DNA of 64,000 bases from Ephemerocybe angulata. Its lineage: Eukaryota; Basidiomycota; Agaricomycetes; Agaricales; Psathyrellaceae. The DNA lies in NCBI GenBank assembly GCA_013368325.1, contig JAACJK010000001.1, forward strand, positions 868,001 through 932,000, in the 5' to 3' direction. The notes beneath the pieces were generated by a model. It was not told the origin of the DNA. It worked only from the letters and a program-made list of their open reading frames with translations, and searched no databases. Shown here in pieces: positions 14,407 to 37,106 of the stretch. Numbering within the stretch: position 1 is the first letter of the stretch; the number at the start of each line of letters is the position of its first letter. The translations under genes and the position numbers were made by a program.

Positions 14407-17313
14407 CTCTTCCCCACATCGTGTTCATGCTCTTATCATTGGCATCGACACCTATTCCTTCGACCGAACGGGGTTCTCACCTTTGAGATCTGCCGTCTCG
14501 GATGCAAAGAAATTCTGTGAATGGGTAGTCAAAGATCTCAAGGTACCGCGATCATCCATTCATATGCTTCTCGACGACGAGGCAACGCGAGAAAACATCA
14601 TACAAGCACTCAAGGATCTAGCCAATGACGAACTCATCGAACATGACGATCCTATTATATTCTACTTTGCGGGCCATGGAAGCGAGGCTCCTGCACCAGA
14701 GGACTGGCACTGGGGCCATACCAATATCCAGATGATCATTCCTTGGGACTGCAGGCCATCTGTCGATCCCAACAGCGCTGTGCATGGCATACCCGATCGT
14801 ACCCTGGGCCACTTACTTACTGAGATGGCCAACGGCAACAATGGCAACACGGTACGTCCATAATCACGGATATCTGTTTAAACGGTGCCCTTATTGTTAC
14901 ATAGACAGTCATATTCGACTGTTGCCACTCTGGATCTGGGACTCGATCCGATGAGGGCGACTCCCAAACTAGAGGTGGCGACTACATGGGCAAGCTACCT
15001 GCGGACCTCGACAAGAACATTCTCTCCGAATCCAGCAATGGAAACCGAGGAGTCAGCGTACCACATAACTTCAGACACCACGGCCTCCGGTCACATATCC
15101 TCCTGGCCGCTTGTGCTCCGCACGAGGTGGCGAGGGAGGAGAAAGAGGCAGGCCACTTCACACGGGTCCTCCTGAAGGCATTGTCGGGCGTGTCCACAAC
15201 TGAGATCACGTACGAGGATCTACTACAAAGAATGGACAAGCTAGTCAAGTACGTATCTGCAAATGACTTTACTGGATTGAACCTTACGCGGCCCGGCAAG
15301 TCAAACTCCCCAGTGCGAAGGACCCCTCCGCTCTCGATATCTCTTTGACAAGAAGGTCCCGAACACCAAGGCAATCCACCAAGTCGTTCTGAATCGGAAG
15401 GCGGACGAGGCCACCATTGGTGCTGGGGCAATACACGGCGTGGAACTTGGGACAATGTTTGGCCTGTGGAAAAGCCAGGCGGACGTCCAAGGCTCGCCCG
15501 ACGCTAAGGTGGAAGTCACCGCGACAAGCGTTGTCCGTGCAGACAAGTCCACTGTTACCTTCCGCCCCGGGCCCGATATAGTCGAGCCTATGGTCGCCCA
15601 AATACTGGGGGTCCCAAACCCGAAGCTGTGCATCTATGTCGCACCCGAGGTCAAGAAGCTGGAGTGCTACAAGATTGCTTTTTCAAACCTGAATGGCAGA
15701 GGGCTACCGCCAGTCACCGTCGTCGACACAAAGCACCTGGCCACCATCGGCCTGTATATTCCTGACAGTGATGCCTGCTTTATTGGCTTTGAGATGTTGG
15801 ACCCCATTGCCAAGGAGGTGATTCAAAAACAACGGATACGCCATGTCATACCCCCTGACGCCGCCAATCTTCAAGATGCACTGTCGCATATTGCAGCGTA
15901 CTACCACCATAAGGATCGCGTAAACCTCCGCCCTCAGGCTGTGGGAGAAGTGAACGAAGTGGAACCATTCTCCTCCAAATTCACCGTCGATGTATTCGTC
16001 CTGGAATGGGTTAGCAGGAGCCGCCAATGGGTTCCTAAGGGACACAATCGGAATGTCCAGGGGACTGGCGTCAAGGTCACGGTCTGCGAACAGACCAAGG
16101 ACGACTACTACGGCTTCACCGTCAACAACCACACTGATACTGATGTGTTTGTATACCTCTTTTACTTCGACAGTTCTGACTTCAGCATCAGTGAGTGCAT
16201 CCCTCATTGTCGTTCCTCGAATGCATCAAAGAACTCATACTTCCTTCTCCGCAGCGGAGATCCACAAGCCAATGGCGGTCGCCCAGTCTGACCATATTGC
16301 ACCATTGGAAAAGGGGAGCTTCCTTACCATTGGGCATGGAAAATCTGCGGTCGGTCCTCAAGTACTAGAAATTTCCGACCCTGAGGCCGACTTCGAAATG
16401 GGATATCTCCGGTGCTTTGTATCCGCCACATACGTCGATCTTTCTTCCATGGTGCAAGGTGTGATCCCCACGTCTGCGGCAAGGGGTATGAGAGATGCTC
16501 CTAAGGCCTCGACGCCACTGTGGGATTGTATCACTGTGCCTATCATCATGGAACGGAGTCCTTTGAAGCCTCCTGAGCATATGGTTGGGTGAGTCGGTTC
16601 GACATTAGAACTTGTACGCGAGTCATAACAGTTCTTCGAAGAATCATAGGATCGAAGGGAAATGGAAAACATACAGTGGGGATCTCGCTTTTTGAAGCTT
16701 GTGCACGCAATTCTGATCTGTCTTCGTTTCAGTTCTTGGCAGAGTTCTTCAAATCGCTCGTTGGGAATCAAAGCCCGAAGCCATCCTTCAAGAATGCCTA
16801 TGTCAAGGAATACAGTATCGACATCCCAGAACGCAGTCCATTTGCTGTAGTGGACTTACCAAGCTTTGAAGACTCCGAAGATATCAACGGTCGCATCGCT
16901 GTCGTACAGGCCACGCTCTCGTACTTGACCAAAGAGTTAGCACATCCCTTTGGAATGTCAGCGTTACACCAGTACTGACGCTGAAGTTCATTGCACAGGT
17001 ATCAACACGGTCGTCGCTTCAGGTCCTTCATCTGGTGCTACAACATCTCGACCCCCATGTCTGAAGTCGACAGAGCGAACCTTAAGCTCGTCATGGACCT
17101 GTGCGGCGATGGCAAGTTCAAAAATGTAGTCGTCGTCACCACCCACTGGAACCGAGGTGTGGCAGTCGGTTTGAGCAAACCAGCTAGCAGAGGATCCATT
17201 GCTGGTGTCCTCTCCCCTGTGGAACAGTACGAGAGGAACGAGCAGCAACTTCTGGAGGTCACCAAACTCCAGAAGTGGCTTAGGGAGGGTCGAGTCCGGT
17301 TCGAGAGGTTCGG
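14407..17313 (+). pseudogene. Caspase-like (C14) domain + GTPase domain protein, 5' part, split by a transposon
   Basis: Exons 14407-14851, 14905-15248, 15301-16190, 16255-16588, 16642-16935 and 16999-17313 stay in one frame (about 874 codons here). The order is a p20 caspase fold beginning ALIIGIDTYSF, catalytic His in FYFAGHGSEAP, catalytic Cys in FDCCHSGSG, a conserved LLAACAPHEVAREE segment, then a beta-rich C-terminal region typical of agaric metacaspase-like proteins. The intron 16589-16641 leads into a G domain with P-loop GSKGNGKH, Walker-B-like VDLPSFED and a G4-like strand NVVVVTTHW. If that intron is retained, the caspase part stops at 16592, so two adjacent genes is the alternative. 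An in-frame TGA upstream of 14407 shows that an earlier exon exists; it was not found. The transposon inserts after 17313, and the protein would now read about eight foreign codons and stop near 17329. Confidence 0.78.
17303..17313 (+). repeat. Left copy of 11-bp target-site duplication
   Basis: GAGAGGTTCGG occurs here and again at 33943-33953, directly flanking the inverted repeats. The bases on either side of the two copies differ. One copy is needed to restore the host frame. Confidence 0.85.
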
Positions 17314-17404
17314 GGCAGGCGCTGAGTAACCTGTCGGTCCAAAGGACCCCGACTGGTCGATAGAAAGGACCCCGACCTGTCGGGTTTTGGTGAACGCTCA
17401 CGTG
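17314..17404 (+). repeat. Left terminal inverted repeat
   Basis: Pairs with 33851-33942 in inverse orientation. Shared blocks in order from the tip are ACCTGTCG, CCAAA, CCCGACTGGT, GACCCCGAC and GCTCACGTG. A hand alignment of the inner 76 bp shows about 54 identities. Each repeat contains two copies of a GAC-C/T-GGTCG-like motif, a plausible transposase site. Confidence 0.82.
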
Positions 17405-17479
17405 GTAAGCCACCCAGGGTGGGGCAAGGCACCTTGCCTAGGGCAGGAGCCGAAGGCCGATACAACGTCGTGAGCTTGT

Positions 17480-18510
17480 AATCGAAGATGTCTGACTACT
17501 TCCCCGCCTACCAAACCACTGTTGGATGAAGGTCTATAGATCTTCCTTACGAGAGGTCCACCTGGGGGGGAAGATGGCGGTAGCTCTGCCTCCTCTCTGA
17601 AAATCACAGGGAAGATGTAGATGTCTTCCTTTCCGAGAGGTCTCCCTGGGAAGGAAGATGGCGACAGCTTCGCCTACTCTCAGTGAACCGCAGAGAAGAT
17701 GTAGAACCCTTCCCAAAACCCTATATCCTCCCTGCTAGGCGGAATAAAATGATTTGACCTGAGGAGTCGAACAAACGTCCTCCGAAGGGTCTTGGAGCAC
17801 CCTATCCACTGCACCACTTGTCCTTGTATATAGGTATGTTGATAGGCTACATACCTCTCCTCCTCTTCCACCCCGCACTTGGCCTCCCCAAGACAACCCC
17901 GAGACGGGCGTATCTTCCGTGAGGTCTTGCGGGGCATGCTCCGAGGGAACTGGTATCTTCGGCCTCGCGCGTAGGTTAAATCAGAAGATATCTATGTGTT
18001 CCAGTTCGAGATCACCATCTTCAAGGCGCGAGCATGGACGGGTCGGGAAGATATGTCCATCTGCCAAAGACCTCAGGTCCTGGTGGCCGAAGATGTACTC
18101 ATCTTCTGAGGATGTAGCGGGGTAAGCTCGGACTGGGGTGATATCTTCAAGATCGCGCTTAAAGGCTGGTTCGGAAGATAATCTTATCTTCCAGTTCGCA
18201 TCCGGAGAGGATAACACCTGCTTCGAGAGGCGAGCAGGCATGGATCCGAAGGTATGTTCATCTGCGCCAAGGACTTCCGGGCCTGCTCTTCGTACCAGGA
18301 GCAAATATCGCCTTCTTCTGGATGACCCGGGCATCAACAGCTTGGAAGATATGCACTGCATCCAAATGGCCGGTGAGACGAATGTTGAAGTCGCGCTCAT
18401 CTTCTGCGCTTTAAGTCCGAATCCTATGGAAGATATACACGTCCTCTGGACTGTCTTCCTGGCCGGTGAATGATGGATGATGGAAGATATCCGCGTCTTC
18501 TGGAGGCAGC
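17480..18510. repeat. Left subterminal GAAGAT/ATCTTC array
   Basis: About twenty GAAGAT or ATCTTC hexamers in both orientations, spaced roughly 30-80 bp. They are often paired as short palindromes, for example GAAGATAATCTTATCTTC near 18174. There is no conserved reading frame. The same motif fills the other end of the element, which suggests clustered binding sites for the element's own DNA-binding protein (inference). Confidence 0.75.
17741..17825 (-). other. tRNA-like relic (A-box and B-box)
   Basis: The minus strand reads AAGTGGTGCAGTGGATAGGG (A-box-like) and, about 45 bp on, TTTGTTCGACTCCTC (B-box-like). The T-stem does not pair and the anticodon loop would be 8 nt, so a functional tRNA is unlikely. 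Probably SINE- or tRNA-derived. Confidence 0.4.
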
Positions 18511-19047
18511 ACGGTGCGGGCGAGTGCGGGCGCCTATCTCATCAAACCCAACGGCCCGGCGAATGGCAAGAGCGTTCTCCCAATGGTCGTGGAGACTAAC
18601 AATCCACCGTAATCTATAAAAGCAATGGCTGAACGGTTATGGATGGCGATGGAAAGTGGTTATACCCGCAGCTTGGGGTTCGACCCATGCTCAATGCTTT
18701 ATTTTTTATGACTATCCGAAATATCAAAGACAGGGGCAGAATTACCCAATTCGCCAAATCGCTCCAGGATTTGGCTTCAATCCTGGAGCACTTTGGCGAA
18801 TGCGGCAATTGATACCCCTATCAGGAGCCTGCCAGAACGGATACCAAGCCCAACCATTCCTGGGTCAAAAGTGATGCATTTTTTTTATCTAAAATGCATC
18901 ACCTTACTTAAGAAACTATGTACTGATTGGAGTCTGCGATGGGTAGGAGGGGCACACGATTTGATTTGACTTAGGCGCTCGGGTGCGAAATATCAATGAA
19001 ACACGTTTAAGAACACTAATGACATACAAACAACCCCGGTATAACAA
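18511..19047. other. Spacer inside the transposon
   Basis: Between the left subterminal array and the 3' end of the transposase gene. No gene recognised. Confidence 0.45.
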
Positions 19048-22000
19048 CTACGAAAGCTTCAAGTTCTTAATGCGGAAGCGGTTCCAAACAGAAAGGAAGG
19101 TCTTCGTATATATAATGGCCCTTTCCTGCGACATATAGCTCACCGATTTACGGATACGACGCAGAGCACTGTTACCGCACTCGCCTGCACTCGAGTTGAT
19201 TGAGATCAGCCTGGGGTCGGCATTCGCGTATTCATAGAGGAATGCTGCCGGGCTGCATTTGGTGTGACCAGTGGCATGGAAGTCGTCGATCGCGAAGAGC
19301 GTGTTCTTGAAGAATTCAGGTTCTCTGAGCAGGCAGTACGGGCCAAGAGCACATGCGAAGTCATAAATGACACGCTTCGGTGCGACTGGCCAGCGCGTAA
19401 CCATAGCCGAAAAGACATCGTTTCGCCCCTCGCTCGACGGAATGCAGTGAAATCCGTAACAGACGCTGTGCGTGCACCAGCCAGCCATTATCCCGCCCAT
19501 CTTGCTCTTCTCACCGTACTCCGAGTAGAACTTCCCACATGTATCGCCCCCTCGCGAAGAATCCTCCTTCTTTAGGTCAGAGATAAGCTTTGGGTAGTCT
19601 GGTCGGTGACGGATCTGCTCCAGACTATAAAAACAGCCAGTCTACAGTGAGGTATACAAATCAATATGTAGTCAACAGGTTAGGCGGGATCGAGACATAC
19701 CAATCTCCAGTCGGCCTGCGCTGATTCGTTCGGAAGGATGACGGGAATCGGACGCTCGTCAACGGTAATGTCGTGCCAAACAGACGAAGCCCGGTCAGCA
19801 ATCCAAGTCATCATGGGGATGAGCCCTTGGATGTTGCCGTGGAGCTTTAAAAGCTGAAAGAGACCGGGAATAGGGAGGAGGGTCGACAGCCGGTTTTCCA
19901 TGGGATTAGCAATGAAGTCTCGGAGACGCGTAAGCGAAGGTGGGTTGACCATTTGAAGAATCGATTCCTCGGCTGCAATCTGCGCAGAATTAGTGGTAGA
20001 AACATACCAAGCAAAGACGGCGCCGTACCTGAAGAAAGAAGCTACGGTAGACAATGGAAGGTCGGATCTTGCTCTCGTACGCGTCGAACCCGTATGCCGT
20101 CAGGAATAGCAACCCAAGAGCAGGGCATAGGTCATTGAGCTTCCCGTATACTGTGTCGATGCGGGTGATGTCGTCCACAACCAGGTCATCCTCTGCAAAT
20201 GCATCCTCCTCCTGCTCCCCCTCCCCCGCGCCCGGTTGATCAACCCCATCACCGTCTCCTGATGTCTGGCCAGAATCGACCTTGAAGCTCTTGATGACTT
20301 GGCGTACCTGCTTTCGAAGGGTGGCGTCCGTTATCAGCTGTTGTCCACGCAGGTTCTTCACCAATGGCCGAGAGATAGACTGGGAAGACTTCTCCGTAGG
20401 GGGAGATATCGTAGACGAGAGGTGCTTCTTGTGAAAGGCGACGGTCACACCATCCCAGATGATTGTCTCCGGGGCCGATCCGCAGATGGAGCAGCCCATG
20501 TCATTCTCAAAAGCCTGGATAGATATGTAGGCGAACCAAACGGTGCGGAAGAGGTCCTCCCCCATGAATGTTGCATTGACCGTGGCGTAGCGGTGCTCCA
20601 TCACGGTAACGTAGGCTGAAAATGGCGTCTCCGAGGTACAATAGCTGATCGTGTAATCGTCGAGTAGTTCATGGCTCACGATGACGCTGTTGTTGTAGTT
20701 GAAGAGGCCGCGCTCGCGGAGGTCTGGGCCAATGTGACGACGGCGCTTCCCGGGGCAGGTAGGGCATTGTTGCAGTTGTATCTTGGCTGAATGGACGCCG
20801 TTGGTGAGTGTAAAGATCCGACAGTTCTTAGTTACGATATCCGCATCCTTGTTGAACATCGACCTCGCATTCTGCGGGCAGGCGCACGTGGAGTGCTCGT
20901 CGATTGGAAGCGGAAGGGTAGGGGCGTCACGGAAGGGAGGTGGGCGGGAGTAGAGGTGTTCATCCTTGGGGATCATGACTGATACTGGTGGGAGAATGGG
21001 CTTGTACGAGATGGCGCCGTGACGTGAAAGAGTAGCTATTTGGGCAGGGATGAGCATATTGAGTAGAAAAGACAGAGACATACGCACCTAACGGCCGTGC
21101 TGGGACTAATACTTCCTTTGCGACCGGCGACCCTGTATCCTCTGGCATATCACTTTCCCCTGCAAGCCCGAGCAACTCCTTCAATGCCCTCTTTGCCTCA
21201 GGTATATGGGTGCATCGGTAGGCGCCGGAGTGAGATTTGGAGCATCGCCAGACGCCTGCTGTCGGAAGAGTCCCTTTGTGGGTGACAATGGCACGACCCT
21301 TTAAACCTGGCTGTGTCCGACTCTTCACGGAGAACATAGTGTCCACCTCGTCGGAATTTGGGACTTGCTGGCGTACACAGATAACTGCGTCAGAGTCTAT
21401 AACCCCAGCGCAGGAAGTTAGGAACATGCATGAGGAAGAGAAGAGCAATTTCGAGACGCACCCTGAGTCGATGTCGACTGCAAGCAGTCAAAGTACGATT
21501 CTATGTCCAGGTCCTTGGTGAACGCTTGGTGAATGCAGACTCTGTTTTGAAGTGCGAGAGGGCATGTACACGCAACGTCTACTACGCCCTCTTCACGCAT
21601 GTACTCAAGGTGATACCACAGCCCCTGTAAGAGTATGTTAGCTGGCGTCCCGCCGTCGATAATAAAGTATACACGTACAGTACTCTCCTCCTTTTTGATG
21701 TTCCAACCTTCAACGGCAAAGACGGTGTCCTCAATGAAGTAGAAACCGGCCGTGAAGGAATCCACTGCGTCGTGGTATACGCTCAACTGTTCCTCAGTGT
21801 AACCGTGTGAATGGGTGTCAGAATCCCAAGACGGCGTGTTGCCGGCATCACCATGGTCTTCCTCCCAACCACCACTACTGCCATCGCCCTGCTGCCCTCC
21901 GCCAACATCATCTCCGCCTACACTCGATTCCGCTCCACTCATTCTTCCACCAATATCCAATCCTTTCAACCTCTCCGTCAGCCCCATCGCACTCTTCTCC

Positions 22001-22224
22001 TCAAGCCAAGCAGTGGCGTCTGGCACAGCAGGAGGTATGCCGCGACGACCTCGCTTCACACCTCCCTTCCGGACGAGCGGTTGCTGATATTGGCGCAGGG
22101 CCTTGGTCGGCGAATGGGGACCCTTTTCGTTCTGGGCAGAATCGATCAGGGAAGCGGGATAGTCCTGGTATTCCTCGTCCGAGAAATCAGTTTCGAGTAT
22201 CGCGGCGCCTCGTTTGGGGGCCAT
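19048..22224 (-). CDS. KDZ-type transposase with SWIM zinc finger and CxC5/CxC6-like cysteine clusters
   Basis: Exons 22224-21462, 21396-21088, 21035-20029, 19979-19701 and 19641-19048 join in frame. A further 54-nt in-frame intron (GTACGT..CTAAC..ACAG, about 21682-21628) is likely in exon 1, giving about 965 residues. The N-terminus is acidic and disordered. It is followed by a SWIM-type finger (VACTCPLALQNRVCIHQ), then Cys-rich segments (WRCSKSHSGAYRCTH, STCACPQNA, CPTCPGKRRRHIG) preceding GLFNYNN and LLDDYTISY, which I recall as features of CxC5/CxC6 clusters tied to KDZ transposases. The RNase-H-like core has candidate acids in GGDTCGKFY (about D801), VIYDFACALGPYC (D862) and NSSAGECGNSAL (E922), plus IDDFHATGHTKCS. 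Role: cutting and joining the element's ends in the nucleus. No stop or frameshift is visible. Confidence 0.83.
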
Positions 22225-22521
22225 TCTACACAGAGAATTGCACAGAGAAGCTTGTCAGTCCAAGCACGTCTTGTTCCACGCTGCACAACAATGGCATCAC
22301 GGCGATGGCTACCTAATGCGTTTATCCCAATAGCCGAGCGGCTCAGCGCTTAGAAGACCCCAAGAGACCCCATAACTCCCGAACCAGCTCGTGCTCTGCG
22401 AATGCCCCTGCAAAATTTTTTAGGGTGCAAGGTGTTCGCATATCGTCATTTGTTTGGTACGCCCGCCTCCCGATTCCATCGCCATCTCTAACCTTCTCTT
22501 TGCCCAGTTGTCGCTCGGAAA
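22225..22521. promoter_or_regulatory. Divergent intergenic region, transposase / accessory gene
   Basis: Only 297 bp separate the transposase ATG (minus) from the accessory gene ATG (plus), so both are probably driven from one bidirectional promoter. No clear TATA box was found. Confidence 0.45.
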
Positions 22522-23753
22522 ATGGGACGCCCGGCCGCGAAGAAGCCCGCGGCGTCTGCGAAGAAGGGAGGAAAGGCCTCCAAGCCGTCGCCCTCCAAGC
22601 CATCCCGCCCTCCGGTAGATGCATCATCGCCCACCAAAGCTCGCGCCCCGCGACGCTGTAACGTCTGTCCAGATCGACCCCTGAAGTCCGAGTGCGCCTG
22701 CTCGAGCCGCGGGAAAAAGGTGTGTTAGTCTCTTGACATTTCATGTCAAATCCTTCTGACAAATCTATTAGAAAGAAGGTCCTGCTCCTCCATACCCTGT
22801 CCCTTCGCCGGTCCCGCCCCCTCCCGTCACTCCTGTCGCCCAGAGGCACGTCCCACAGGTTGCGCTGCTGCCATCAACCCCGACTCGCTCTTCGACTACT
22901 CCAGGCACGTTTGCTCTGCCGCCCACAACTCCCGCATCGCAAACTACACCGGCTGCCCAGTCGCAGCCCGTAACACCCGTACCAGCGTCGCCTCCAGAGG
23001 AGGAGGGCTCTTCGACACGCTCTACGCCTGCCCCAGACGAGACCCAGGCCGACCCCACAACCACGCCGCAACAGAAACGTGTTCATCCCTCGGACACCAA
23101 CGCGGTGTATGGGCATGTCAACGGCGCAGCCCGAGGGACAACGGTAATCAGTAAGCCCATTCATAGTACCTATTCTACACTTTCCCTAACTAATGAATCT
23201 CAGAGATGGCACGCGTCCGCGCAATGAAGGCCCCATACACCACTCGCGCGACAGCCACGCATGGCTTTGACTACCTCAGTCGCGACCTCATCTCCCGCGT
23301 AAGTGCCACATTTCCCTCAACGTCCCCACTGCCCCCTGCTGACGGCATGCTATTCCCCCCAAATAGTGTGAAGCGCTTGCGGATAGGACTTCTGGATGGC
23401 TATACATCGCCATGCAGCACCCGGGATCCAAGCTCCCATTCCTGCACTACACCTCCAGAAAGCTCCGTCGCGAAGCGGCTGCCGAGATGAACACTATCCA
23501 CAAAGAAGTGGGGGACATGATGAAGCTTGTCAAGCGAGGGGACCGCGCTCAAGATCTCAACATCGAACGTGTTACGATGCAGGCAGAGAAGATGGTACAG
23601 GAGGCGACCGATATGGCGACGAAGTCCGAGCAGGCTGCCAAAGCTGCCCAGGAGGAGAATGCGCGACTCATGGCTGAACTCGCCGCTCGTGATCATCAAA
23701 TTGCTGTTCGTGATCGCCTCCTGGCTCGTCGGGGACCTCAAGCGGTAGAATAG
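22522..23753 (+). CDS. Transposon accessory protein with basic N-terminus, CxxC cluster and coiled coil
   Basis: Exons 22522-22719, 22772-23150, 23204-23298 and 23367-23753 give 352 residues. The start MGRPAAKKPAASAKKGGK is AT-hook-like (GRP within a basic stretch). A small cysteine set follows (CNVCPDRPLKSECACSS), then a Pro/Thr linker. Next comes a compact segment (THGFDYLSRDLISRCEAL, SGWLYIAMQHPGSKLPFLHY). The end is a coiled coil (ERVTMQAEKMVQEATDM, KAAQEENARLMAELAARD). The function is not known. Divergent pairing with the transposase and DNA-binding-like features suggest a role in transposition, such as end binding or regulation (inference). Confidence 0.72.
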
Positions 23754-24101
23754 TCAGATAATTTAGTATGTCGTGCCAGTACCTTAGACAAATACAACGT
23801 TTTTTGCCCTTCTATCTCGCTGTCTCGGCCACCTGCAGAGCTCAAATCGCCTGGCGCAGGAACACAGTGGAAATTTTTGCCTTGTTCTCTAGTACATCTA
23901 ACTTCCTATGACATGGCCCAAGTTACATTCTGTAGAAAGGATCTCATAGTCCAGTCGGTAGATCGTTCGACGTTGTGCAGCCAGTGTGCCGGGTGTTCGA
24001 ACCTTGATAGGTGCGACCTTTTTTGCAGCCATATTTCCCAAGGTGCGACAACTTGGTACTGGGTCATGGCTCTTGTGGCTGCCGGTACTCTCTTTTTTCC
24101 A
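23754..24101. other. Spacer with tRNA-like relic
   Basis: The + strand at about 23945-24015 carries TAGTCCAGTCGGTAG (a good A-box) and GTGTTCGAACC (B-box-like). The T-stem does not pair, so this is probably a tRNA-derived relic rather than a working tRNA. Confidence 0.4.
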
Positions 24102-24781
24102 ATGTCCTCGCGCCGCCCCACTCGTAAGAAAACCCCTCAAGAAGCTATTGACGCAGAAGAACAAAGGAAGGAGAAGAGCCGCAGATCCAGTAGAAATAAC
24201 TACTACAAGTACGCGAGTCTTTTTGCTGCAGTCAAACGCGTCTGAATTCGTTACAGGGATGTAAAGAAAACTAGGGCATACAACGCCAAAAAATCGAGCG
24301 ACTACAGAGCCAGGCAAAGAGCGTAAGTTTGTGCACGGCTTGCCCATCTACATAACCTGACCTTGTATCCATTCTAAGGAAAAAACAAGCCTCAGTCCAG
24401 GCCATACCCGAAGATATTCAAGTAGAGAACAACACACCAACGAGACATCCCTCCTTGTCGCCGCTTCCCTCCTCCTCCATACCGTCTTCTCCATCCCTTC
24501 CCTCTTCTCCATCTCTTCCGTTGTCGTCACCCCCCTCGTCGCCCTGCAGTCCTTCTCCTCAAACAACTCAGTCAGTACGCCCACCTCTGCCAGCTGCCTT
24601 GGGGCCGCTTGTGCGCATGGCAGCCTCCCCACCCCAAAAGGGTGATACCACTGCCGGCCAATGTCCTCGACGCCCCCAAAAATCGACAGCTCCCCAATAT
24701 CGAGATGCTCGCATGACCTACCCATCCATCTCATCCCTGGCGTCTGCGCTGAAGCTGTACAACTCAGTCCGGAAGTTGTAG
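24102..24781 (+). CDS. Small basic transposon-encoded protein
   Basis: Exons 24102-24208, 24257-24322 and 24379-24781 join in frame to 191 residues. The first 70 residues are strongly basic and helical (RRPTRKKTPQEAIDAEEQRK, then AKKSSDYRARQRAKKQ). They are reminiscent of, but not matching, the basic region of a bZIP protein; no leucine zipper follows. The middle is a Ser/Pro low-complexity run (PSSPSLPSSPSLPLSSPPSS), and the end (YPSISSLASALKLYNSVRKL) could form one amphipathic helix. The function is unknown. The three-exon frame continuity supports a real gene, and the charge suggests nucleic-acid binding. Confidence 0.62.
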
Positions 24782-24983
24782 ATCCTGTTCCCGCTGTACC
24801 GTACAATGAATGCGAATTATGCGATAGTAGAAATAAATTCACTTCATGATTCTATCTACTGGAAAGCCCTAGCTATACTACTTAAAGGGAAAAGAGGGTC
24901 GCATTGGGGTCGCATTGGTGTACTGAAGAGTTAATCAGCGTCTGAGCTCGGGATCATGGAATGGGAATAGCATACCTTTTTGG

Positions 24984-25499
24984 CTAGAGCTCCCGGTCAA
25001 GCCACTTGTCCAGGGCCTCGCACTCCTCCATGTCGACGGCCTTCACCCAAGAGTCCTCGTTGGGGCTATACCCCAGCCAGCGTACCAAGTACATCAGGCA
25101 TTTCCTCTTTTCTCCCTCGGGGACTCGCCGCTCTTCGTCGACAATGCAGTCGACGTACCACTCTACTTCTCCCTCAGCTGTGATGACCGGTTCGCGGCTG
25201 GTGCAGGCGCATGGACGCCCAGAGATGGGGTCCGCGATGGGGCTGTGGGGTGCCAGCATGGGCCCGGAGGCGTCGGCGCGATCTTCGTCGACCATCGCGA
25301 TGGGGGTGTGCGCAGACATGGGGGCTTCGTCGGGGGGAAGGAGCTTTATGGACGCAGCGGGAGAAGGAGGTATGGTGGGATGACGGGTCGAGGATGGAGA
25401 TTGAGGAGGGTTGGGTGGAGGGTTGGACTCGGATACGTGTGACCTCTTCATTTTTACTGGCAGCTGGGGCGGTGGTGGGGTGCTAAAAAATCTTTGCAA
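24984..25499 (-). CDS. Chromodomain protein carried by the transposon
   Basis: A single exon of 171 residues. Residues 1-95 are Pro/Ser-rich and disordered. Residues about 113-170 form a chromodomain: EWYVDCIVDEER, then KCLMYLVRWLGYSPNEDSWV, then a C-terminal helix EECEALDKWLDREL. Aromatic cage positions (Tyr115, Trp141, Tyr144 region) are present, consistent with methyl-lysine binding. Family knowledge: chromodomains often steer transposon integration or chromatin association, and a free-standing one beside a transposase and a TET/JBP enzyme fits a targeting or silencing-evasion role (inference). The gene lies antisense between two plus-strand genes. A short Cys pair (PCACTS) precedes the domain. 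Confidence 0.83.
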   Translation of the reverse strand: MQRFFSTPPPPQLPVKMKRSHVSESNPPPNPPQSPSSTRHPTIPPSPAASIKLLPPDEAPMSAHTPIAMVDEDRADASGPMLAPHSPIADPISGRPCACTSREPVITAEGEVEWYVDCIVDEERRVPEGEKRKCLMYLVRWLGYSPNEDSWVKAVDMEECEALDKWLDREL

Positions 25500-26461
25500 T
25501 CGTCCTTCGGGCGTATCCGAGGCCGGCTTTGATCCGTCACTGGCACGGGCGTCTAAGATAGGCAGGACCGAATCGGGTCAGTGACGGGTCAGTGATGGGT
25601 CAGTGACGCCGTTGGTGTTTTGGTAGTCTCTCGGACTCTCTCCATTAGCCTAGATGGCCCAAACTGCAATACACTGAAGTGGTGGTATATTGGCCACCGC
25701 GCATTTGTGAGTTTGAACCCAGACTAGGCGCCCAGGCCTAGGGAGTATGGAAGAGGGGAATGTGGCCAGGTCAGTGACGGGTCAGTGACGCGCACCTCCA
25801 CAGCCTGTTTACCAGCTTTGGGCACATTTACTGCACCTCTATGACTCTGTATTGGGTGGAAATAACTCACCTGTAATGTATCTTAGTGTAGCTCCTGAAT
25901 TCCTGTAAATAAATTGAGTGGGGAGCATGTTCTTGATTCTGTGTCTCTGCATCTATGGCGATCGAGGATCAAACCTGCTGACACTGCCTGACAGGTGCAA
26001 TTGTTGGTTCTCGGCCAAGACTAAATACACGTCTTAACCCTAGACCTCAACCATCCCCCTTCGCTCTCTCTAACACATTCCAGCTGCCCTTTCTTGCGAC
26101 CTCTGACACAGTTCTAAGATTTATTCAAGGCTCTACCACTGGTGTGTAACGCGAAAGGGCGGTAAGTCGCTCGCTCAAACTCTTTCTGCATTACCTCTCT
26201 CCCTCTGCCTCCGTGTCACTCCTCAGCCGCCCATGCGCTGGGCGCGGCTCTTGCGGATACAGCCCATGGATCTCACCCAAAGGTCCTAGCTTATCTTTTG
26301 CGAGACCGCCCTTGGGGCCCGGGGCAAGTGCTCGAACGCTGTTCAGCGTGCTGCTCCCGGCAGCTGACTCGATGCTTGGGAGACTCGCTCTGGAACTCTC
26401 CGTGTACCCATCCTGACTGACCCAGCCTATCCTAGGTACCCTGTTTCGAACACGCCTCGAC
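25500..26461. other. Non-coding spacer in the transposon
   Basis: No gene seen. It holds short direct repeats at 25,570-25,800, a tRNA-like relic at about 25,640-25,735 (GTGGTGGTATATTGG with GAGTTTGAACCC, T-stem unpaired), and presumably the promoter of the TET/JBP gene. Confidence 0.5.
25574..25795 (+). repeat. GGGTCAGTGAC direct repeats
   Basis: The 11-bp motif GGGTCAGTGAC (one copy GGGTCAGTGAT) occurs head to tail about three times at 25,574-25,608 and again as a near-tandem pair near 25,770-25,792. It lies upstream of the chromodomain gene and could be its operator or another transposase site. Confidence 0.7.
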
Positions 26462-28365
26462 ATGTCTCGGAAGGTACGACACCCATACGCTCTTCCTGAA
26501 ACCGTCTCATCTCTGTTTAGACTCGATCTGGCCGGACGTTTTCCTCCTTCACAACAGGAGAAGATGCAGACGAACACAGCGAGATCGGCGTCTGGAAGAC
26601 AGACTTCTCTAGTGCTCTTTACTTCTCAGCAGCCTCTAGTGCCCAGAGAGCTGTAGGGTATGCTGTCGACGATGACGGCTTCGGAGATGATGAGCTGCAG
26701 GTCATGTCCCGCTCACCGTCGCCTGTGCTGTACGGCGATGAGGATATATATGGCATTATAAGCGGGGAAGCTGTGAGTTCTCATCTTCCCGTACTGTCTG
26801 CTTGCATGCTAAGACATTTCCACAGCTAACCAGCACGCCATTGGAGGAGCACTCTGGCTCTGCCTGTCCCCCCCTTGGTCCGCCACCTACACCATCCCGT
26901 CTTGCAGAACCATCGTCTCCCAATCCCGAGACCGTGTCGGCCAAAGCTGGCTCCAGTCATCGCAGGGCGGCGACTCAACGAGAGGCCAATGCCAAGTCAT
27001 CCTCTCCCGCTACCCCGGGCGCCGCATCAGCGAACACAGGCTCCAGCCGTCGCAGGATGGCGAGGCGACAAAATGCCAAGGCAGCTCGCATTGCTACGTT
27101 CGCCACCAATGCGGCTGTGACGCATCGTCCGAAGTCCCAGACGCTGCGCCGATACACCAAGCATCACCGAAGGGCTGCTGCGTTGAAGTCACTGAGGGAC
27201 TTGCCTCATGCTGGGGGAGGGTCCTGGATCGGGCGGCGGGGCGGCAGTGGAAAGAAGAGTTTGTGGTCATTGGAGGAACTCCGGGAGAAAGAGTATGGCT
27301 ACGTCGCGTACGAAGCTGGGTAAGCCACTACTATGCGCGCATGTCGATTCTCGTTTACTGACAAGCGCCTATCCAGGATGAACATCTTCTTCGTAGACGC
27401 TGACGACGTCATCGTCAGCGCTCTTATTGATCGGCCTCAGTGCGAGGACTGGCCCATAGTTCTTGACGAGGCTGCCCGCTGCCTTCGGGTCTCCCGCATC
27501 ATTGGATTGGAGCAGCTCGCTTTCTCAAAGGCCTTCACCGAACACCGGCGCGGGGACTTCTTAGCCTTACCGGTGGGTGTCTCGATGGGCGGGGGTCAAG
27601 TCGTGCGTGAATTCCTTTTATGTCGCCCGCACATCGTTGCCTGACTAGAGCCTTCAGAAACCTGGAAATCTCGTTCACCAGGTCTATGCGCGACGCAGGA
27701 TTGCACAATCTATCTTACGAAACCGGGCAGTTCGGCGCCTCGCTGGCTATCAATCGAGTAAGCACCCCTGTAGTATATCTGTCAGAATCTAGGGCACTCA
27801 TTTATGAATAGGCGCATTCGCGTTTGTCGCCCCAAAATTATACCGGCGTTACTCGACAGACCTCTCGGCACTATTTGAACACCACAAGGAGCTCCAGTGG
27901 AACTTTGATAACAGCATCTTCCCTGCAGCGAGCTTCAATTGTGGACCGCAGAGTGCGTCCATTCAACACTTCGACCATAACAACCTTTCTTTTGGACTTT
28001 GCGCCCTCACCCCCCTCGGAAATTTCGATTGGACGAAAGGGGGACACCTCGTCTTGCACAGTTTAAAGTTAGTTGTCGAGTTCCCGCCAGGCACGACGGC
28101 ACTTCTTCCATCCGCGGCGGTGGAGCATAGTAATATCCCCGTACAGCCGGGTGAGGATCGGATGTCGATGGCACAGTATGCCGCAGGTGGACTGTTTCGC
28201 TGGGTTGCGTATGGCTTCAAGACGGCGAGTAGCCTTTCCTCGACCGCTGCGGGGCGCGCAAAAAGGGTATCGGTTGACGGAGGAGTAGACGAGCGTTGGG
28301 AAAATGGACTGCATTTATATTCTACTTTAGATTCTTTAGATAGTGACTACACCGTGAGTCGTTAG
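26462..28365 (+). CDS. TET/JBP-family 2-oxoglutarate/Fe(II) dioxygenase
   Basis: Exons 26462-26473, 26521-26772, 26826-27319, 27377-27602, 27658-27757 and 27812-28365 join in frame to 545 residues. The first third is disordered and basic (SSRRRMARRQNAKAAR). The C-terminal half is the double-stranded beta-helix: PGNLVHQVYARRRI, KLYRRYSTDLSALF, the HxD iron motif HFD (H414, D416), LTPLGNF, GGHLVLHSLKLVVEFPPG, distal iron ligand in VEHSN (H467), the 2-oxoglutarate arginine in GEDRMS (R478), and GGLFRWVAYGF. All cofactor ligands are kept, so activity is expected. Family knowledge: these enzymes oxidise 5-methylcytosine or thymine in DNA, and fungal copies are expanded together with KDZ elements. 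The likely role is changing methylation of the element or its target (inference). Confidence 0.85.
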
Positions 28366-28842
28366 ATGTGCCTGCACTTGTGGGCTTGGCGCCGAATATA
28401 TGAGCCGGGTTCCGCCTTCGCTTAACATGCGGTCGGTTTTGTCGGGTCTTGGGGATACGTTCTGGTTGCTGGTCGCACTGACATGTTGGGCCAATGCACT
28501 CTACACTTGAATATATAGTTACGCCCTGCTCTTTATCTCTCCCGCTGTGTGCGGACTTTCCACAGACAGAATATTTGAGGGCGCTAGTTACCGGCGCCTA
28601 ATTGAATGCCTGCCGGGGATACTGCCTATAGCCGAGTCGAGCCGAGATGCCGTACCTCCGGAAGCTCTGCCAGTTCCCAATTTAGAAATCGAACTGGGTG
28701 AACACCTCACTACGCTCATCGCGAGCCACCATGCACACGAAATGCAATCAGAGCCTCAGGGACCCCGTAGGCACATATCCGAGCTCCTTGGCTTTCGTTC
28801 TCGCTTCTCTGCCCTTCGCCGCCCACGTCAAAGCCCAACCTG
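28366..28842. other. Spacer upstream of the large accessory gene
   Basis: An open frame at 28,547-28,843 lacks an ATG and known domains. It may be 5' untranslated sequence or an unresolved first exon of the next gene. Confidence 0.4.
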
Positions 28843-31800
28843 ATGTCGCAGCCAGCCTCTGACCTTGCCAGCGTTGTCGGTACGCGGATTATACTCGCTC
28901 ATACCAACCCCTACTGACCTTGGTTCCAGCTAACCCTCTAGTTGGACCCTTCCCAGATTCTCTGGACGAAGTCAACGCCCTACTGGAGGCATGTCAGGCC
29001 GCGTTGGTCAGTCTCAAGGCAGAGCAAACTCTCCTTCTCAGTACGTGCATTTGGCTTCGACCGCCATCGGCCGACTAACCTGCTATCTAGAGAATGGCAA
29101 GAAGGATGAGGCGGGGGGAATATCGAAGCAAACTGCGACAATACGTCTGAACATTCAAAGGCTGGGAGGGAAGAAGTCGGCGCTCACCAGGAGCTTGAAG
29201 CGAGGGAGAGAGGGTCAGGTGGCGGAGGACGTGCAGCCACCACCGCCCAAGAAGGTGCGCGAGGATGTGCAGCCTGCAGGTGTGTTCTTTGATGATATGA
29301 TATATCAATGTAATATCTGACTTATTTCTGAAGTTCATGCGGGCCCATCAACCGTAGACAAGCCTGGCGGACCGCCGTCTCTAACCCAGCCGCACTCTAC
29401 CTCGCCACCAGCATCACACCCCCAGCCCCGCCCTGTTGTTTCGAAGGTCTACAAATCCTCGGCGACGGCAGCAGCAGCAGCAGCAGCTACGGCAAACCCA
29501 CAGCCTTCTTCGGTCGCCCCCACTCCCCAGGCTGCCCCGGCAGCGACTGCCATTCCCGCCACTATGCCCGTCACTCCCGTAGCGACTGCTAAGCCCGCCG
29601 CTAAGCCCATAGCCAAATCCGCTCCTACTCCCATTCCCACCTCCACCACTAAGCCCATCGCATCGGCGAATACTGTCACTAAGACCGTACCTGCTACCAT
29701 CCCCGCTGCTAAAACCGTTTCCCCACCCACCCCTACGACAAACACGGCCACCAGTTCCCCAACCACCCCTCGCCTACGTTCCTCAAGCCTTACCCCTGTC
29801 CCCCATGATGGCAATGCACAGGAGGATGGCGATGGTGGGGACCTCCGATTCCAGGACCTGGATTTTGACGACGACGATGTCCGTGTTGGAGGTGGCGGCA
29901 TGGAGGATGTTCCCTCGAGCTTGGTTGCCAATGAAGACCTTCCACTAGGCCCTAGGCCCGGTCCCGGCGGCATCCAGGACATCAACATGAATGCAGAAGA
30001 GCTGGACGTCAAGGACCTGGATGTTAAGCCGAATCCAGGGGATGAGTTGGCTAGAGACGGGCCATGGGGTGCGACCTTTGCGTCGTACGAAGAGTTCAAG
30101 GCATGGGAGGAGGCGTTTATCAACACCCATGTCAACAGCGTGATGGGCGGTAAGCCGTGTACGCACTGCGGTTCCAGTAAGTCCACTGCGCTGCCCGGCT
30201 GGCCGTTACCCATTAACTTATACTCTCCCTTTAGAACCTAGTGACGCATCGGAGGCCGAACATGGCGAGGAGGAGACTCAGGAGAGAAAAGGGCGTGGGC
30301 GCAAGTGTGCAGATGGAGAAGAAAACGAACACTTAGGCGATAGGTGGGAGAACCTTCCTGTGGAAAAGCAGGATGAGATTATCGGTACGTCGCATAAGCC
30401 CGGTACTACCTGACGTTACTTATTCGTTCGATCAGACAAATGCAAGGCGGCGTTCACTGCGCATCTCGCTACGGGGGAGCCCATACCGCTTGATCAGAGA
30501 TGCTGGTGTCGACGAGCACCCGCTTGCTTCCCTAAGCTCACGACCCACTCGTACACCCTCGCGGCCAGTCTCCTCATCAATCGCGAGGGTCGGACTGTAT
30601 GCCCCTACCACACCATGTACCAGCGCAGCGGCAAGATCGACAACGACATCAATAACGACGCCTCAAAGACTCGTTACACCGTCACTGGCGTCCCCTACGA
30701 TTCACAAAAAAAGGCGGAACCCAACCACCCCCCAAGCTTCCTTGACCGCCCAAGCTATTCCACGCCCGACGGCGCGACGCGCTGCGCGACGGGGTGGAAT
30801 GCTAACTTCACTCGCGACAAGGTCTTATCATTCTTCCTCAGGGGCGAAGGCGGTCTTTACCTGCACTGCGGGTGCGACTTGGAGGAAGTTTTGGTCGAGT
30901 TTGTCGTGTGGAAGACCCTCAAGATCAGCTCTCCATCTCGTGTCGAGGGCTGGGGGGAGGGGAGACTTCGCCCTATCAAACCCCGCGACCGCGCTATCAT
31001 CTACGTTATCATCACCAGCTTCATGAACTATGACATCGAGGATCTTTTCGACGTCGACTCAAACGGCTTTTCCCTCGACGATGCCCGGAAGCTTCGCCAC
31101 CACGTCAGGCGCTTAACGAGGGTTTACGAAACGCCGTACGGCACGGTGGATAGTAGGGGTCAGGGCCGAGTTGCGAAAAGGAACATGGCTCGAGATATGG
31201 AGCTCTCTGACCAGGAGCACAAGAGGTCAACGCCTGGTACCGTTAACCCGAAGTCATCAAAGTCATCAAAGCCCCCTTCTTCGTCAAGCTCTTCCTCCTC
31301 CTCTAACCCATCCTCCTCCGACTCATCCTCCTCCGACTCATCGAGCAGCTCCACCTCTGATTCGGATTCCATCTTGGCGCCTCACGTCTCGGACGAGGAG
31401 GACTCCAAGGCGAGGGTGAAGCTTGAAATTGAAAAGCGGGATAAGAAGAAGAGTAAGGCGAAGAAGGAGCGGCGAAAGGAGAAGGAGAGAAAGAGGGAGC
31501 GGGAGCGAGAGAAGGAGCGAGAGAAGGAGCGAGAGAGGGAGCGAGAGAGGGAGCGAGAGAGAGAGAGGGAGGAGGAAAGGGAGAGGGAGAAAAGGAGAGA
31601 AAAAGCGAGGAGGAAGGAGAAGAAGAAGAAGTTGAAGGAGCAGGAGAGGGAGAAAAAGAGGGAGAAAAAGCGCGAGAAGGAAGCGAAGGGGAAAGGGAAG
31701 GAGGAAGGGCTGTCGAAGCAAAAGGTGAAGGTGGAGGAAAATGGTACGGCGTTGAAGGTTGCCTTGATGGGCACTAATTTAGGCAGCTCGTCTAAGGATG

Positions 31801-31847
31801 CGATTGTGCTTTCCGACTCCAGCTCGGACTCCAGTGGAAGTGATTAG
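28843..31847 (+). CDS. Large transposon accessory protein with Cys/His cluster and Arg/Glu-rich coil
   Basis: Exons 28843-28879, 28942-29040, 29091-29279, 29334-30176, 30235-30384 and 30436-31847 join in frame to about 909 residues. The order is a short coiled region (LDEVNALLEACQAALVSLKA), an Ala/Pro/Thr linker with an 8-Ala run, acidic patches, CTHCGSS, then an ordered zone with candidate metal ligands (KCKAAF, RCWCRRAPACF, CPYHTM, LHCGCDLEE). A Ser run and a highly charged tail of Arg/Glu/Lys repeats (EREREKEREKERERERERER) follow, with a closing Ser/Asp-rich end. Not a family I recognise. The Cys/His zone resembles a KDZ-associated zinc-binding module, and the charged tail resembles RS/RE-type nuclear proteins. 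An earlier start cannot be excluded. Confidence 0.68.
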
Positions 31848-32479
31848 TAGCTGTATCTTATGTCTTATGTCTCAAATAGTAGTGCATCATATCAGTTTGG
31901 ACTAATACAACTCTCGTCAACCCGTATTCCTGACCTCTGATACTGTTACAAAGTTTGTTGTCCTGCCTTCTCAATATTAATGTTGGAACTTGGACGTAGT
32001 ACAGCTGTAAAGGTACAAAAACATAAATCGTCATCAACGGGATTCAAAGGTACAAAAACATAAATCGTCATCAACGGGATTCGAACATCGGGCCTCAGGA
32101 AGGTAAGCCCTGAGCGTTCAGAAGCTTATCGTGCCAACCGTTCTGCCATTTGGACATGTAGAATGGGCTTTTACCAACAAGAATGAGGGTTGACGCCCAC
32201 CGGCCATCTTCTCGCCACCTCCCGCTGACTGCTTCATTTGCTCTTACTTCCTCCTTGTTTCGCCACTCCCACCTAGGTAAGATTAAAAACTTGTTTCAAC
32301 GGCAGCCATTTGACATGCATGCTGGTAGCATGCAGGGGCTCACCTATCTCCCTGGGCCCGTTCGGGAGATGCTCTTCTGTATTTTTTTAATGCTTTGGCT
32401 TGACCGCGACTCGAACCCTGGACCATCTGGAGACCTGGTGCCGGAGTATTCGCCGCCCGTATCTTCCTTAGGCGCCCGA
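31848..32479. other. Spacer with tandem repeat and tRNA-like relics
   Basis: No gene. It contains a 37-bp tandem duplication (32011-32084). There are two minus-strand tRNA-like relics, at about 32,064-32,160 (GGCAGAACGGTTGGC with GATGTTCGAATCCCG) and about 32,400-32,475 (GGGTTCGAGTC B-box). In neither does the T-stem pair. Confidence 0.5.
32011..32084 (+). repeat. 37-bp tandem duplication
   Basis: Two adjacent copies starting AGGTACAAAAACATAAATCG, with only terminal differences (..GATTCAA versus ..GATTCGA). The second copy runs into a tRNA-like B-box. Confidence 0.85.
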
Positions 32480-33850
32480 TGGTTGGAGCGAAGACGCGGG
32501 TATCTTCCTTGGTTTCCGTGAGGCTCGCAGCTGGTAGGAACGACCATCAACTTATCTTCGGTGTGCTTCCTGTCAGTCGATATTGAAGGTGCCTATATCT
32601 TCAGTTTGGGTCACGGTAAAAGAACTCGATCTTCGGCGTGTCTCCTGAAGATGGCTAGTATATCTTCTGTGGGCTGCATCTCTCGAGGCTGAAGATGAGT
32701 GTAAACTCCCTGTTGAGAGGTTGAGGTTTCGATTTATCTTCGGTATTCACTTTTGATTCACTTTGGAGACGTCTCGAAGATGGTGGTATCTTCCATGCGT
32801 CTCGCCGTATGGGAGGCTGAAGATGACCACAATCTCCCGGGCCTGGCTCCAGGTGGGCTCGAAGTTCAATTTATCTTCGGTGGTCCCTCTGCATGGCGCC
32901 TCGAAGATGGCAGTATCTTCCGTTTGACCCGCTTTATGGGCGGCTGAAGATGCCCACAAACTGGCCGGGGCTGTAATCTATCTTCGGAAGTCTCTCTGCA
33001 CGGCGCCTCGAAGATGGCGATATGTTCCGTTGGCCCCGCTTTGTGGGCGGCCGAAGATGACCACAATCTCCCGGGGCTGGCTCCAGATGAGCTCTCGAAG
33101 TTCAATTTATCTTCGGTGCAACTTCGGTGGACTCTCTGCACGGCGCCTCGAAGATGACGGTATCTTCCGTTCGACCCGCTTTGTGGGCAGCTGAAGATGA
33201 CCACAATCTCCCGGGGCTGGCTCCAGGTGAGCTCTCGAAGTTCAATTTATCTTCGGTGGTCTCTCTGCACGGCGCCTCGAAGATGACGGTATCTTCCGTT
33301 CGACCCACTTCATGGGTGGCTGAAGATGGTCACAAACTCAAGTCCGAACGAGGTGTCTTCGGCACGCCTCTCTGGCGGGTGTGTCGAAGCTGGTTGTATC
33401 TTCCGTGCATCTCCCTGGAGGGGACCAGGAGGACATGCATATGATGATATATCTTCCGTGAGGGGTCTTGCTGAGCCGCCATGCCAAGGTACCGAAGATG
33501 GCATTGTCTTCCGTACCGGCCACGGTAATCGAGAATGAAGACGCGTCTATCTTCCGCGGGTCAGACACAGGCGGGGTGGAGGGCGCTGGAGGTTCGATGG
33601 ATCTTCCAGGTGTCTCCTTGGAGGTTGCCTCAAAGACGGTGATTTCTTCCTTGAATCTTAAGGCTTCGAGAGGAACCTCTCATCTTCCATATATCAGCCT
33701 GCTGAGTCTACCAAGAAGTGTTTATATCTTCGGAATTGAGGTACAACTCTGAGCGAAGACAGTGTGTTCCTCTGCTTCGAGTGCCATCTCAAGTACTGAA
33801 GATATCGAAGACTTCTACCATCTAAATTTCGCTTTTGAATTTTGAAGATT
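32480..33850. repeat. Right subterminal GAAGAT/ATCTTC array with 105-140 bp tandem units
   Basis: The same hexamers as at the left end, here organised into degenerate tandem units. The block GGCGCCTCGAAGATG recurs near 32,895, 33,002, 33,142 and 33,271, and GAAGTTCAATTTATCTTCGG recurs at 32861, 33097 and 33237. Units contain one ATCTTCGG, one GAAGATG..ATCTTCC pair and one CTGAAGATG. Frames opened by the repetition are not genes. Confidence 0.78.
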
Positions 33851-33942
33851 CACGTGAGCAGTCCCCAAACACCGACCAGTCGGGGTCGATATAGCGTACC
33901 AGTCGGGTGGGTTTGGTACGACAGGTCGTTCACCGGGTATCT
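33851..33942 (-). repeat. Right terminal inverted repeat
   Basis: Inverse partner of 17314-17404. It begins on the + strand with CACGTGAGC and ends in ACGACAGGTCG, followed by about 16 less conserved bases up to the duplicated target site. Confidence 0.82.
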
Positions 33943-33953
33943 GAGAGGTTCGG
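33943..33953 (+). repeat. Right copy of 11-bp target-site duplication
   Basis: GAGAGGTTCGG, identical to 17303-17313 and immediately followed by the displaced host exon. The true duplication may be shorter (8-11 bp) if the element's ends share bases with it. Confidence 0.85.
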
Positions 33954-34248
33954 CGTGTTTCAAGATTTATCAATCCGCGACCACTCTGCGACGGAGAAAA
34001 TCAAAAGTCCCTCGGAACTCCTCAAGTTACTCTTGGAAAAGAGTCCCCAGCCTCTTCTAGCTCAGGAGGAGGCGTGCAACACCAAGACAGTGACCAAGAC
34101 CACCGCTGGGAGGACTCTGCAGTCCATAATCCAGAAGGAAATCGACAGCATTCGGTCGCTTGGAGACGAGGATAGGAAGAATGAGGATATTGCTCGTTGG
34201 GAGGAGAGGCTCGAAGATTTGGGTAGCGTGAATAGCGTTTACCACTGA
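33954..34248 (+). pseudogene. 3' part of the split caspase/GTPase gene
   Basis: The sequence after the right target-site duplication continues the G-domain protein exactly in frame from 17313: VRFERFG joins VFQDLSIRDHSATEKI. It then reads LLKLLLEKSPQPLLAQEEA and KTTAGRTLQ, matching the usual end of agaric G-domain proteins (a LL.N.PLPL-type segment followed by TAAG). The stop codon is at 34246-34248. It has no start of its own and is severed from its 5' exons by 16.6 kb, so a normal product needs excision of the element or removal of it from the transcript. Confidence 0.82.
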
Positions 34249-34940
34249 CTGCGACTGTATAACCAAAGTTGAGCGCTGAGCTGTCCTAATGATTTGTATA
34301 TCAGATAACTGTCCCGTATTACTTTCCTTGAAATCAAAACGTCCGAATTGTGGCAGCTGCTGCGCGCCCTGTGGTTCAACCAAGTGCCTTCTTGCCATCG
34401 TCCTGCGCTTCTAGTCTTGGCCGAGCGTGTCTGATACAGAATCCGTACTGGCAATGGTCCTATGACGGGTGGGGGTTCCTCTGGCAAAAAGGATGTGATG
34501 TTCTTCGTGCCGTTCAAGTTGTTGGGACCGTCAGGGCAAAATCCGGTGGTCTATCGAGTGCGGCGTGGCTACGGCACCTGACGCCAAGGTTACGTATGAA
34601 GGAACCTCGCTTGCACAGTCGTTCGGGCATTGGAGGACGAGATGATGGTTGCAGCAAGCTTTGACTGCACGATGTCGAACTCACATCAGAATTTGATGGT
34701 TTGGATGTTGCTCTCGACCACCACATTCGACGATAACGATTGCCAGATGCCGCAATGCAAGGACATGAATTCGAAATCTGGGATCGTTCTGCGCTGTTCT
34801 GCGCTTTGAAGACGACTCCGCACCTTGCCCGCAGCTGATAATGATGGATATATGAGCCGTGGGTTGCGAGGGCAATTGGTGACCTTGACTTGACCTTGCC
34901 CTCCACAAACACCACGGTACCTCCATTGTTGTTCGGCTCG
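34249..34940. other. Intergenic region
   Basis: No gene seen between the displaced GTPase exon and the F-box/LRR gene. Confidence 0.45.
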
Positions 34941-36433: not shown

Positions 36434-37106
36434 TGTGGGCTGGGCTAGGTCGGTTGCAGTAGCCAGCGTGTTGGTGGGTGGGCCAGAGCATGATATATGC
36501 GAGCGTTTGAGTGCCTCCTGGCTGCCATTTGTGCAGATCGTAGGCAGTTTGAGTGCCCTGGCCGATTCGAAGGCGGAGAAGTGGACGTCGAAGGATGGAG
36601 GCAAGGCGGACGGACGGTCGTCGAAGGTGGAGGGACGGCGCCAAACGCGCAACGGCCGCGTCTGAAATGGCGCGGGAGGGTCGAGAATGGGGGCGAGAAG
36701 AGGAGGCGTGCGCACATATCTACGCGCAAACGCAGCAACACTTCATCTACCATCATTTCAGGCCCTAAGACGAGCGCTCCAAGAGTTCGCGTGGCGCTTC
36801 ACGCCGTGAAGCGCGAAAAAGTGCCCAACCTGGGATATGTGGTACGGCTTCCCTGATACATTGGACCACGGGGTCGAGCATATATGCAAACAAGCTCCCA
36901 TCTCTGAACTTTTTGAGGAGGACGTGGCGATCTGATACGAATACTTACCTTCATATACCTGGTGCCCGGAAATTCGGTTGCAACGGGTTTGACGGGTTTG
37001 CTGAACCGCCCATTACTTCATCCTTGTACTCGGGTTGCCTCCCCGGATATATAAGAGGTTCCGCTAACCGTCTAGGAAGCCCCCATCCGTCTCTCTTCCC
37101 CTACCC
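36434..37106 (+). repeat. Duplicated upstream region, homogentisate dioxygenase copy 1
   Basis: Nearly the same sequence occurs inverted at 47,771-48,475, and a shorter version at 56,172-56,572. Shared landmarks are GGGCTGGGCTAG near the outer edge, AACGCAGCAACACTTCATCT and the TATATAAG promoter block. Frames in it are not conserved as protein. Confidence 0.75.
37048..37055 (+). promoter_or_regulatory. TATA-like box of homogentisate dioxygenase copy 1
   Basis: TATATAAG lies 52 bp upstream of the ATG and is kept in all three copies (the others at 47822-47829 and 56223-56230 on the minus strand), which supports a functional core promoter. Confidence 0.6.

Follow-up and report, generated by a model that had tools for sequence, protein, structure and literature searches.

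Where large KDZ elements of mushrooms begin and end, and what length of target they duplicate, has to our knowledge seldom been fixed. KDZ transposons carrying a TET gene have already been published (Kojima 2025, PMC12730594), where the Kyakuja group is said to duplicate 7 bp of its target, to end in CA..TG and to lack inverted repeats, and the KDZ1-3 elements of Cryptococcus neoformans were shown to move, making duplications of 8 bp (KDZ1) or 4–8 bp (KDZ2 and KDZ3) (PMC12810828). Here we describe an element of 16,632 bp in the inkcap mushroom Ephemerocybe angulata (Psathyrellaceae, Agaricales), lying at 17312..33943 of a 64-kb window (the whole stretch of DNA that was analysed, 64,000 nucleotides, positions 868001–932000 of contig C125 of the assembly). 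It is very probably a complete DNA transposon of the DDE type, from the CxC4 branch of the KDZ superfamily.

The TET-bearing Kyakuja elements of Agaricomycetes are likewise mushroom DNA transposons in which an HxD TET/JBP gene accompanies a KDZ transposase; going by the available passages on them, assignment of our element to Kyakuja is ruled out by its 8-bp duplication, its GGGG/CAGATA ends and its inverted repeats with phased palindromes. Zisupton and Dileera share with it 8-bp target duplications, a KDZ transposase, a TET gene in some members and, in Zisupton, terminal inverted repeats (PMC12730594). However, TET-bearing Zisupton of Agaricales are known there only from Agaricus bisporus, and the passages found mention neither a chromodomain gene nor phased palindromes, a comparison made by published description. 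As far as available, the main text of that paper names neither Ephemerocybe nor CxC, and ‘chromo’ and ‘palindrom’ occur in it once each. The Cryptococcus elements share a KDZ transposase with a Zn-chelating CxC domain and long inverted repeats (139–241 bp there, in elements of ∼9–11 kb), but their domain is CxC1 rather than CxC4, and TET and chromodomain genes go unmentioned in the passages seen (PMC12810828). Among search listings on chromodomains and KDZ, on this species and transposons, and on palindromic or subterminal sites and KDZ, we recognised no same description. The end architecture, the combination of CxC4, 8-bp duplication and chromodomain, and the exchange of the TET gene set out below look new.

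A first-pass annotation, made from the sequence alone, had proposed a complete KDZ-type transposon with both ends, flanked by an 11-bp direct repeat. Gene content, the CxC4 match and termini shared with relatives bear out the complete element, and both ends are indeed present. The 11-bp repeat is also perfect (GAGAGGTTCGG, 17303–17313 and 33943–33953), but the target duplication itself is most likely 8 bp (AGAGGTTC; left copy 17304..17311, right copy 33944..33951), because three related complete elements of the same genome carry exact 8-bp repeats abutting the same termini. These lie at C125:147285-163552 (ACCGGTTT), C185:43351-60231 (CTGAGAGC) and C150:69304-84779 (GTGCTCGG). In all four complete elements one end begins with GGGG and the other with CAGATA, both read inward; in the window the termini are GGGGCAG... 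and ...TATCTG. The longer repeat would thus consist of 8 bp plus one and two coincidental bases, where host bases equal the terminal bases of the element (a coincidence seen to a lesser extent in C185 and C150 too), and the ends therefore shift by 1–2 bases from their earlier position. Terminal inverted repeats and a target duplication, the latter 8 bp in all four elements, are as expected for the KDZ superfamily. For a fifth element, on contig C107, one end was reached and the left end was not. Where that left end would be expected (C107:100900-103100, L082) lies a retroelement-like sequence, with RNase H and integrase features recognised by eye.

The insertion split an exon of a host gene, the 5′ part of which lies at 16985..17303 and the 3′ part at 33952..34248, both on the plus strand. 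Joining the flanks with one repeat copy had been predicted to restore the empty site and a continuous exon, and it does so, giving a single open frame of 202 codons before the stop. Two paralogs of this exon on contig C117 (L078 and L079, 76% and 74% identical in DNA) are unbroken where the element went in, each having a single copy of the site and one open frame running through it; L078 contains the complete 11-mer once and L079 contains it once with one difference. As both paralogs are uninterrupted at this position, the element came by insertion into a coding exon. Searched against proteins 0.55–1.75 times its own length, the protein encoded by the joined flanks had no match at E ≤0.001, which is not evidence of absence because a longer full gene falls outside that range.

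At the ends themselves, the inverted repeats of about 91 bp reported earlier were recovered, with their shared blocks in order (left 17312..17404, plus strand; right 33852..33943, minus strand). They are imperfect, with 64 of 94 alignment columns identical over the first 92–93 bp and a poor match in the outermost ∼25 bp. In local alignment the two 130-bp ends scored 55; 1,990 random pairs drawn from the window averaged 15, and the only one of them to score higher (74) proved to be a genuine inverted duplication at another place in the window. Within the repeats, each end carries three palindromic 12-bp sites resembling CCRACNNGTYGG on a 23-bp pitch, starting 14, 37 and 60 bp from the terminus (left array 17326..17383, starts 17326, 17349 and 17372; right array 33872..33929, starts 33872, 33895 and 33918). 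These are the best and second-best triple arrays of the entire 64-kb window, with 3 and 4 mismatches in total, and coincide exactly with the two element ends. Behind them, with a score of 7, come two readings that are shifted but still overlap the ends, followed at 9 by the first arrays independent of them, and in 200 Markov resamples the score never fell below 8. The same sites on the same pitch are found in all four complete elements: under the 8-bp boundary they start 14 and 37 bp from eight of eight ends, and a third site at 60 or 61 bp has at most two mismatches at six of the eight, being weaker at the two ends of the C125 element. Most of the palindromes read CCGAC..GTCGG in the window and CCAAC..GTTGG in the C150 and C185 elements. 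They are probably transposase-binding sites. The inverted repeats of the C185 element are far longer than those of the others, at ∼870 bp and 89% identity (C185:43367-44217 and 59354-60215; L087, L086).

Between the ends are six genes, as the first-pass annotation had stated, and they can be spliced by hand into open frames. Both ends are present and all frames are open in these hand-made models; the element may, as that annotation supposed, be autonomous and recently inserted. The transposase gene (19048..22224, minus strand, five exons, 983 amino acids) contains a CxC4 cysteine cluster of the KDZ-associated kind (E 7.2e-43, 146 bits versus a cut-off of 26.9) and conserved WDG, YDFAC, IDDFH and ECGN blocks. 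In an alignment of 35 out of 120 listed homologs, the KDZ family of Pfam matched 20 of the 35 relatives at E ≤0.01, which connects this transposase to KDZ by homology. A 95%-identical transposase is present in another strain of the species, where its ends were not seen. The element also carries G2 (22522..23753, plus strand, 352 amino acids), a cysteine-bearing, coiled-coil-like protein that is divergent from the transposase and conserved beside KDZ transposases, and G6 (28843..31847, plus strand, six exons, 913 amino acids), a cysteine-bearing KDZ-associated protein without a Pfam family. Two further genes had gone unmentioned in the earlier reading: a predicted TET/JBP-like 2-oxoglutarate–Fe(II) dioxygenase with an HxD motif, an enzyme class that strips methylation marks from DNA (26462..28365, plus strand, six exons, 545 amino acids), and a chromodomain protein (24984..25451, minus strand, 155 amino acids; Pfam Chromo, E 4.2e-9).

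The window TET protein has the Fe(II) and 2-oxoglutarate residues of TET/JBP dioxygenases, namely HFD, EHSN and a downstream Arg. When the window exon was aligned with 30 TET homologs out of 99, the columns of H380, D382 and H433 were nearly invariant and that of R457 invariant. A search for the HxD motif returned a segment in 86 of the 99 homologs, at least one of which (P0121) was plainly the wrong segment. The TET/JBP fold was recovered through a relative, P0124, which is 57% identical to the window protein, and the nearest solved fold to such a relative is CcTet of Coprinopsis cinerea (PDB 7w5p, 8jkk), at ∼14–16% identity. In transposon TETs of the AG type, Gly or Ser stands where CcTet is reported to have Gly331, and Asp where it has Asp337 (PMC12730594). 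Counting from the HxD aspartate of the window protein, without alignment to CcTet, gives Asn at +3 and Cys at +9.

Several results weigh against these assignments. The exon joins of all six genes were made by hand. Against the KDZ family of Pfam, the window transposase gave only a weak match of one exon (E 0.012, below the cut-off), and the family was not listed for the spliced protein at E ≤1; Foldseek found no match of the transposase model in the PDB at E ≤0.001. This includes the ISCth4 transposase (PDB 6xg8, 6xgx), which is 7–9% identical and has only the DDE core in common. For the window TET protein, Pfam gave no family at E ≤1 and the PDB no sequence at E ≤10, the evidence on its fold coming from the relative, and a PDB search with its profile returned six chance matches (best E 0.18) and no TET. 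Finally, each of the two window end regions was single-copy in a DNA search of the genome. The copies that the first-pass annotation had suggested looking for are therefore missing as near-identical DNA, but there are elements built alike, which share its termini, the spacing of its sites and the 8-bp duplication.

Could the element be a composite, in which a smaller KDZ transposon captured genes, or had them nested in it, at a later time, so that TET, chromodomain gene and G3 (a small basic open reading frame at 24102..24781, plus strand, 191 amino acids) are passengers without a role in transposition? We consider this unlikely, although several observations favour it. The genome contains nothing credibly related to G3, which may be cargo, or not a gene. 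The chromodomain gene, between transposase and TET in the window, lies beyond G6 in C125:149k, C185, C186, C107 and C150, at 33–46% identity. No TET is present near C202 or C47, nor was a TET hit found near a second CxC4 KDZ family that occupies 25 places in the genome, which means that TET is not needed for amplification. On the other hand, in five elements TET is flanked by G2 and G6 and always points the same way, and it lies inside the ends of all four complete elements, which are of similar size. It is also the best-conserved gene between the window and C125:147-164k (80% identity, versus 61% for the transposase and 54% for G6). Among the window, C125 and C185 elements, the ratio of nonsynonymous to synonymous differences (pN/pS) was 0.18–0.24 for TET, 0.37–0.41 for the transposase and 0.42–0.60 for G6, all of them rough values because synonymous differences are near saturation in every pair except C150–C107, a limit that counts against leaning on them. 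For that pair the transposases differ little (synonymous differences, pS, 0.17) at a pN/pS of 0.11; TET-bearing elements therefore moved while under constraint.

The history of the TET gene also differs from that of the transposase, a conflict that the composite origin would accommodate. In the transposase tree (8 of 57 rows), the C185 element joins C107 and C150 (support 100/99), whereas in the TET tree it joins the window and C125 (97/97), and the TETs of C107 and C150 sit among those of loci without a nearby CxC4 transposase hit (99/98). The TET tree comprised 21 of 28 hit rows, five of at most 160 amino acids being excluded and L029 and L030 not considered. Forcing the transposase grouping on the TET data was rejected (p 1e-82), as was the reverse on the transposase data (p 0.01), in a test whose groups were named after the trees had been seen. 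Because neither the position nor the direction of TET differs among the five elements, the simplest reading of these sequences is that the gene was replaced in place; old TET paralogs with subsequent loss are the alternative.

The second rival explanation concerns the boundary, and would have the element be a KDZ variant with an 11-bp stagger and a true 11-bp target duplication. In its favour, the perfect repeat in the window is 11 bp, the full 11-mer occurs in the paralog L078, and perfect repeats also exceed 8 bp in C185 (10 bp) and in C150 (10 bp by extending the printed flanks). Yet the repeat abutting the conserved termini at C125:147277 is exactly 8 bp, 8 bp lie outside the conserved GGGG and CAGATA ends in four of four elements, the palindrome offsets of 14 and 37 bp agree at all eight ends only with the 8-bp boundary, and Cryptococcus KDZ1 makes duplications of 8 bp and KDZ2 and KDZ3 of 4–8 bp, in the passages available (PMC12810828). 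The C125 element is the weakest of the boundary cases, C185 and C150 being cleaner, since its 8-mer resembles the end motif and 10-bp direct repeats derived from that motif lie nearby. An 11-bp duplication thus appears highly improbable to us. That a chance repeat pattern, or a rearrangement or assembly join behind the split exon, produced the locus is scarcely credible: the window ends lack a second DNA copy and their outermost inverted-repeat bases match poorly, but two intact paralogs span the junction, and three other elements have the same termini and phased sites with a matching gene set inside.

Returning to a complete transposon with an 8-bp duplication, we can sketch how it might work. 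The transposase, perhaps together with G2 and G6, its companions in related elements, would bind the three palindromes of each end as a multimer, cut at GGGG and CAGATA, and join both target strands 8 bp apart. The TET/JBP enzyme would oxidise methylated bases on the element DNA and in this way oppose silencing; the chromodomain protein may read silent chromatin or anchor proteins of the element to it. The TET gene itself acts like an exchangeable module. At about an even chance we place a fuller reading in which the CxC4-type KDZ elements of Psathyrellaceae are a distinct lineage. Their transposase would recognise the ends as a multimer, using three palindromes set at a constant 23-bp pitch, and the palindromes would change together with the transposase. 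TET and chromodomain genes would then form an epigenetic module in which TETs from other element lineages take over the position of the resident TET, the transposase remaining associated with G2 and G6, and the TETs would belong to a branch with Asn/Cys where CcTet has Gly/Asp. Boundaries are now fixed for four elements of one genome, together with an empty site; the site array predicts how a transposase would assemble, and a demethylase gene has seemingly been swapped between transposons. With the ends defined, transposition can be assayed, and the idea that transposon-borne TETs counteract silencing can be tested directly.

The TET-free family of 25 places (e.g. L038-L060) has an identical score with the transposase exon throughout and carries relatives of G2 and G6; 18 of 23 fetched loci are identical over 3,792 bp. 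It probably reflects a very recent burst of copies on which the assembly broke. Of the 25 places, 22 are no more than 15 kb from a contig end, and each of these 22 has one and the same orientation towards its contig end. Telomere targeting was considered and dropped: the 13 contig ends checked contained no TTAGGG/CCCTAA, and by eye several have sequence in common, so that breaks of the assembly within near-identical copies more likely explain the clustering.

Inside the window element, the subterminal regions also contain repeats, namely two tandem 83-nt copies that are 77% alike on the left (17547..17713, plus strand) and five copies of ∼105 nt, 61–90% identical to a reference copy, on the right (32731..33338, plus strand). 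Both regions contain degenerate short repeats with GAAGAT...ATCTTC-like pieces, which are candidates for additional protein-binding sites. An Rfam search of 17000–34300 found no match at the gathering threshold, and a tRNA search of the window found none. Elsewhere, an open reading frame adjoining another TET gene (C28:347552; L019, 172–900) contains the cysteine motif LCPFCDEPLPP, which we take to be one that occurs in proteins near other fungal transposases. Outside the element, the window holds three copies of a 2.6–2.8-kb sequence, 93–96% identical (36435–39244, 45647–48464 and 53987–56575), the middle one inverted relative to the first and the third inverted relative to the middle; an open reading frame in the first copy matches homogentisate 1,2-dioxygenase (HgmA_C, E 5.4e-7).

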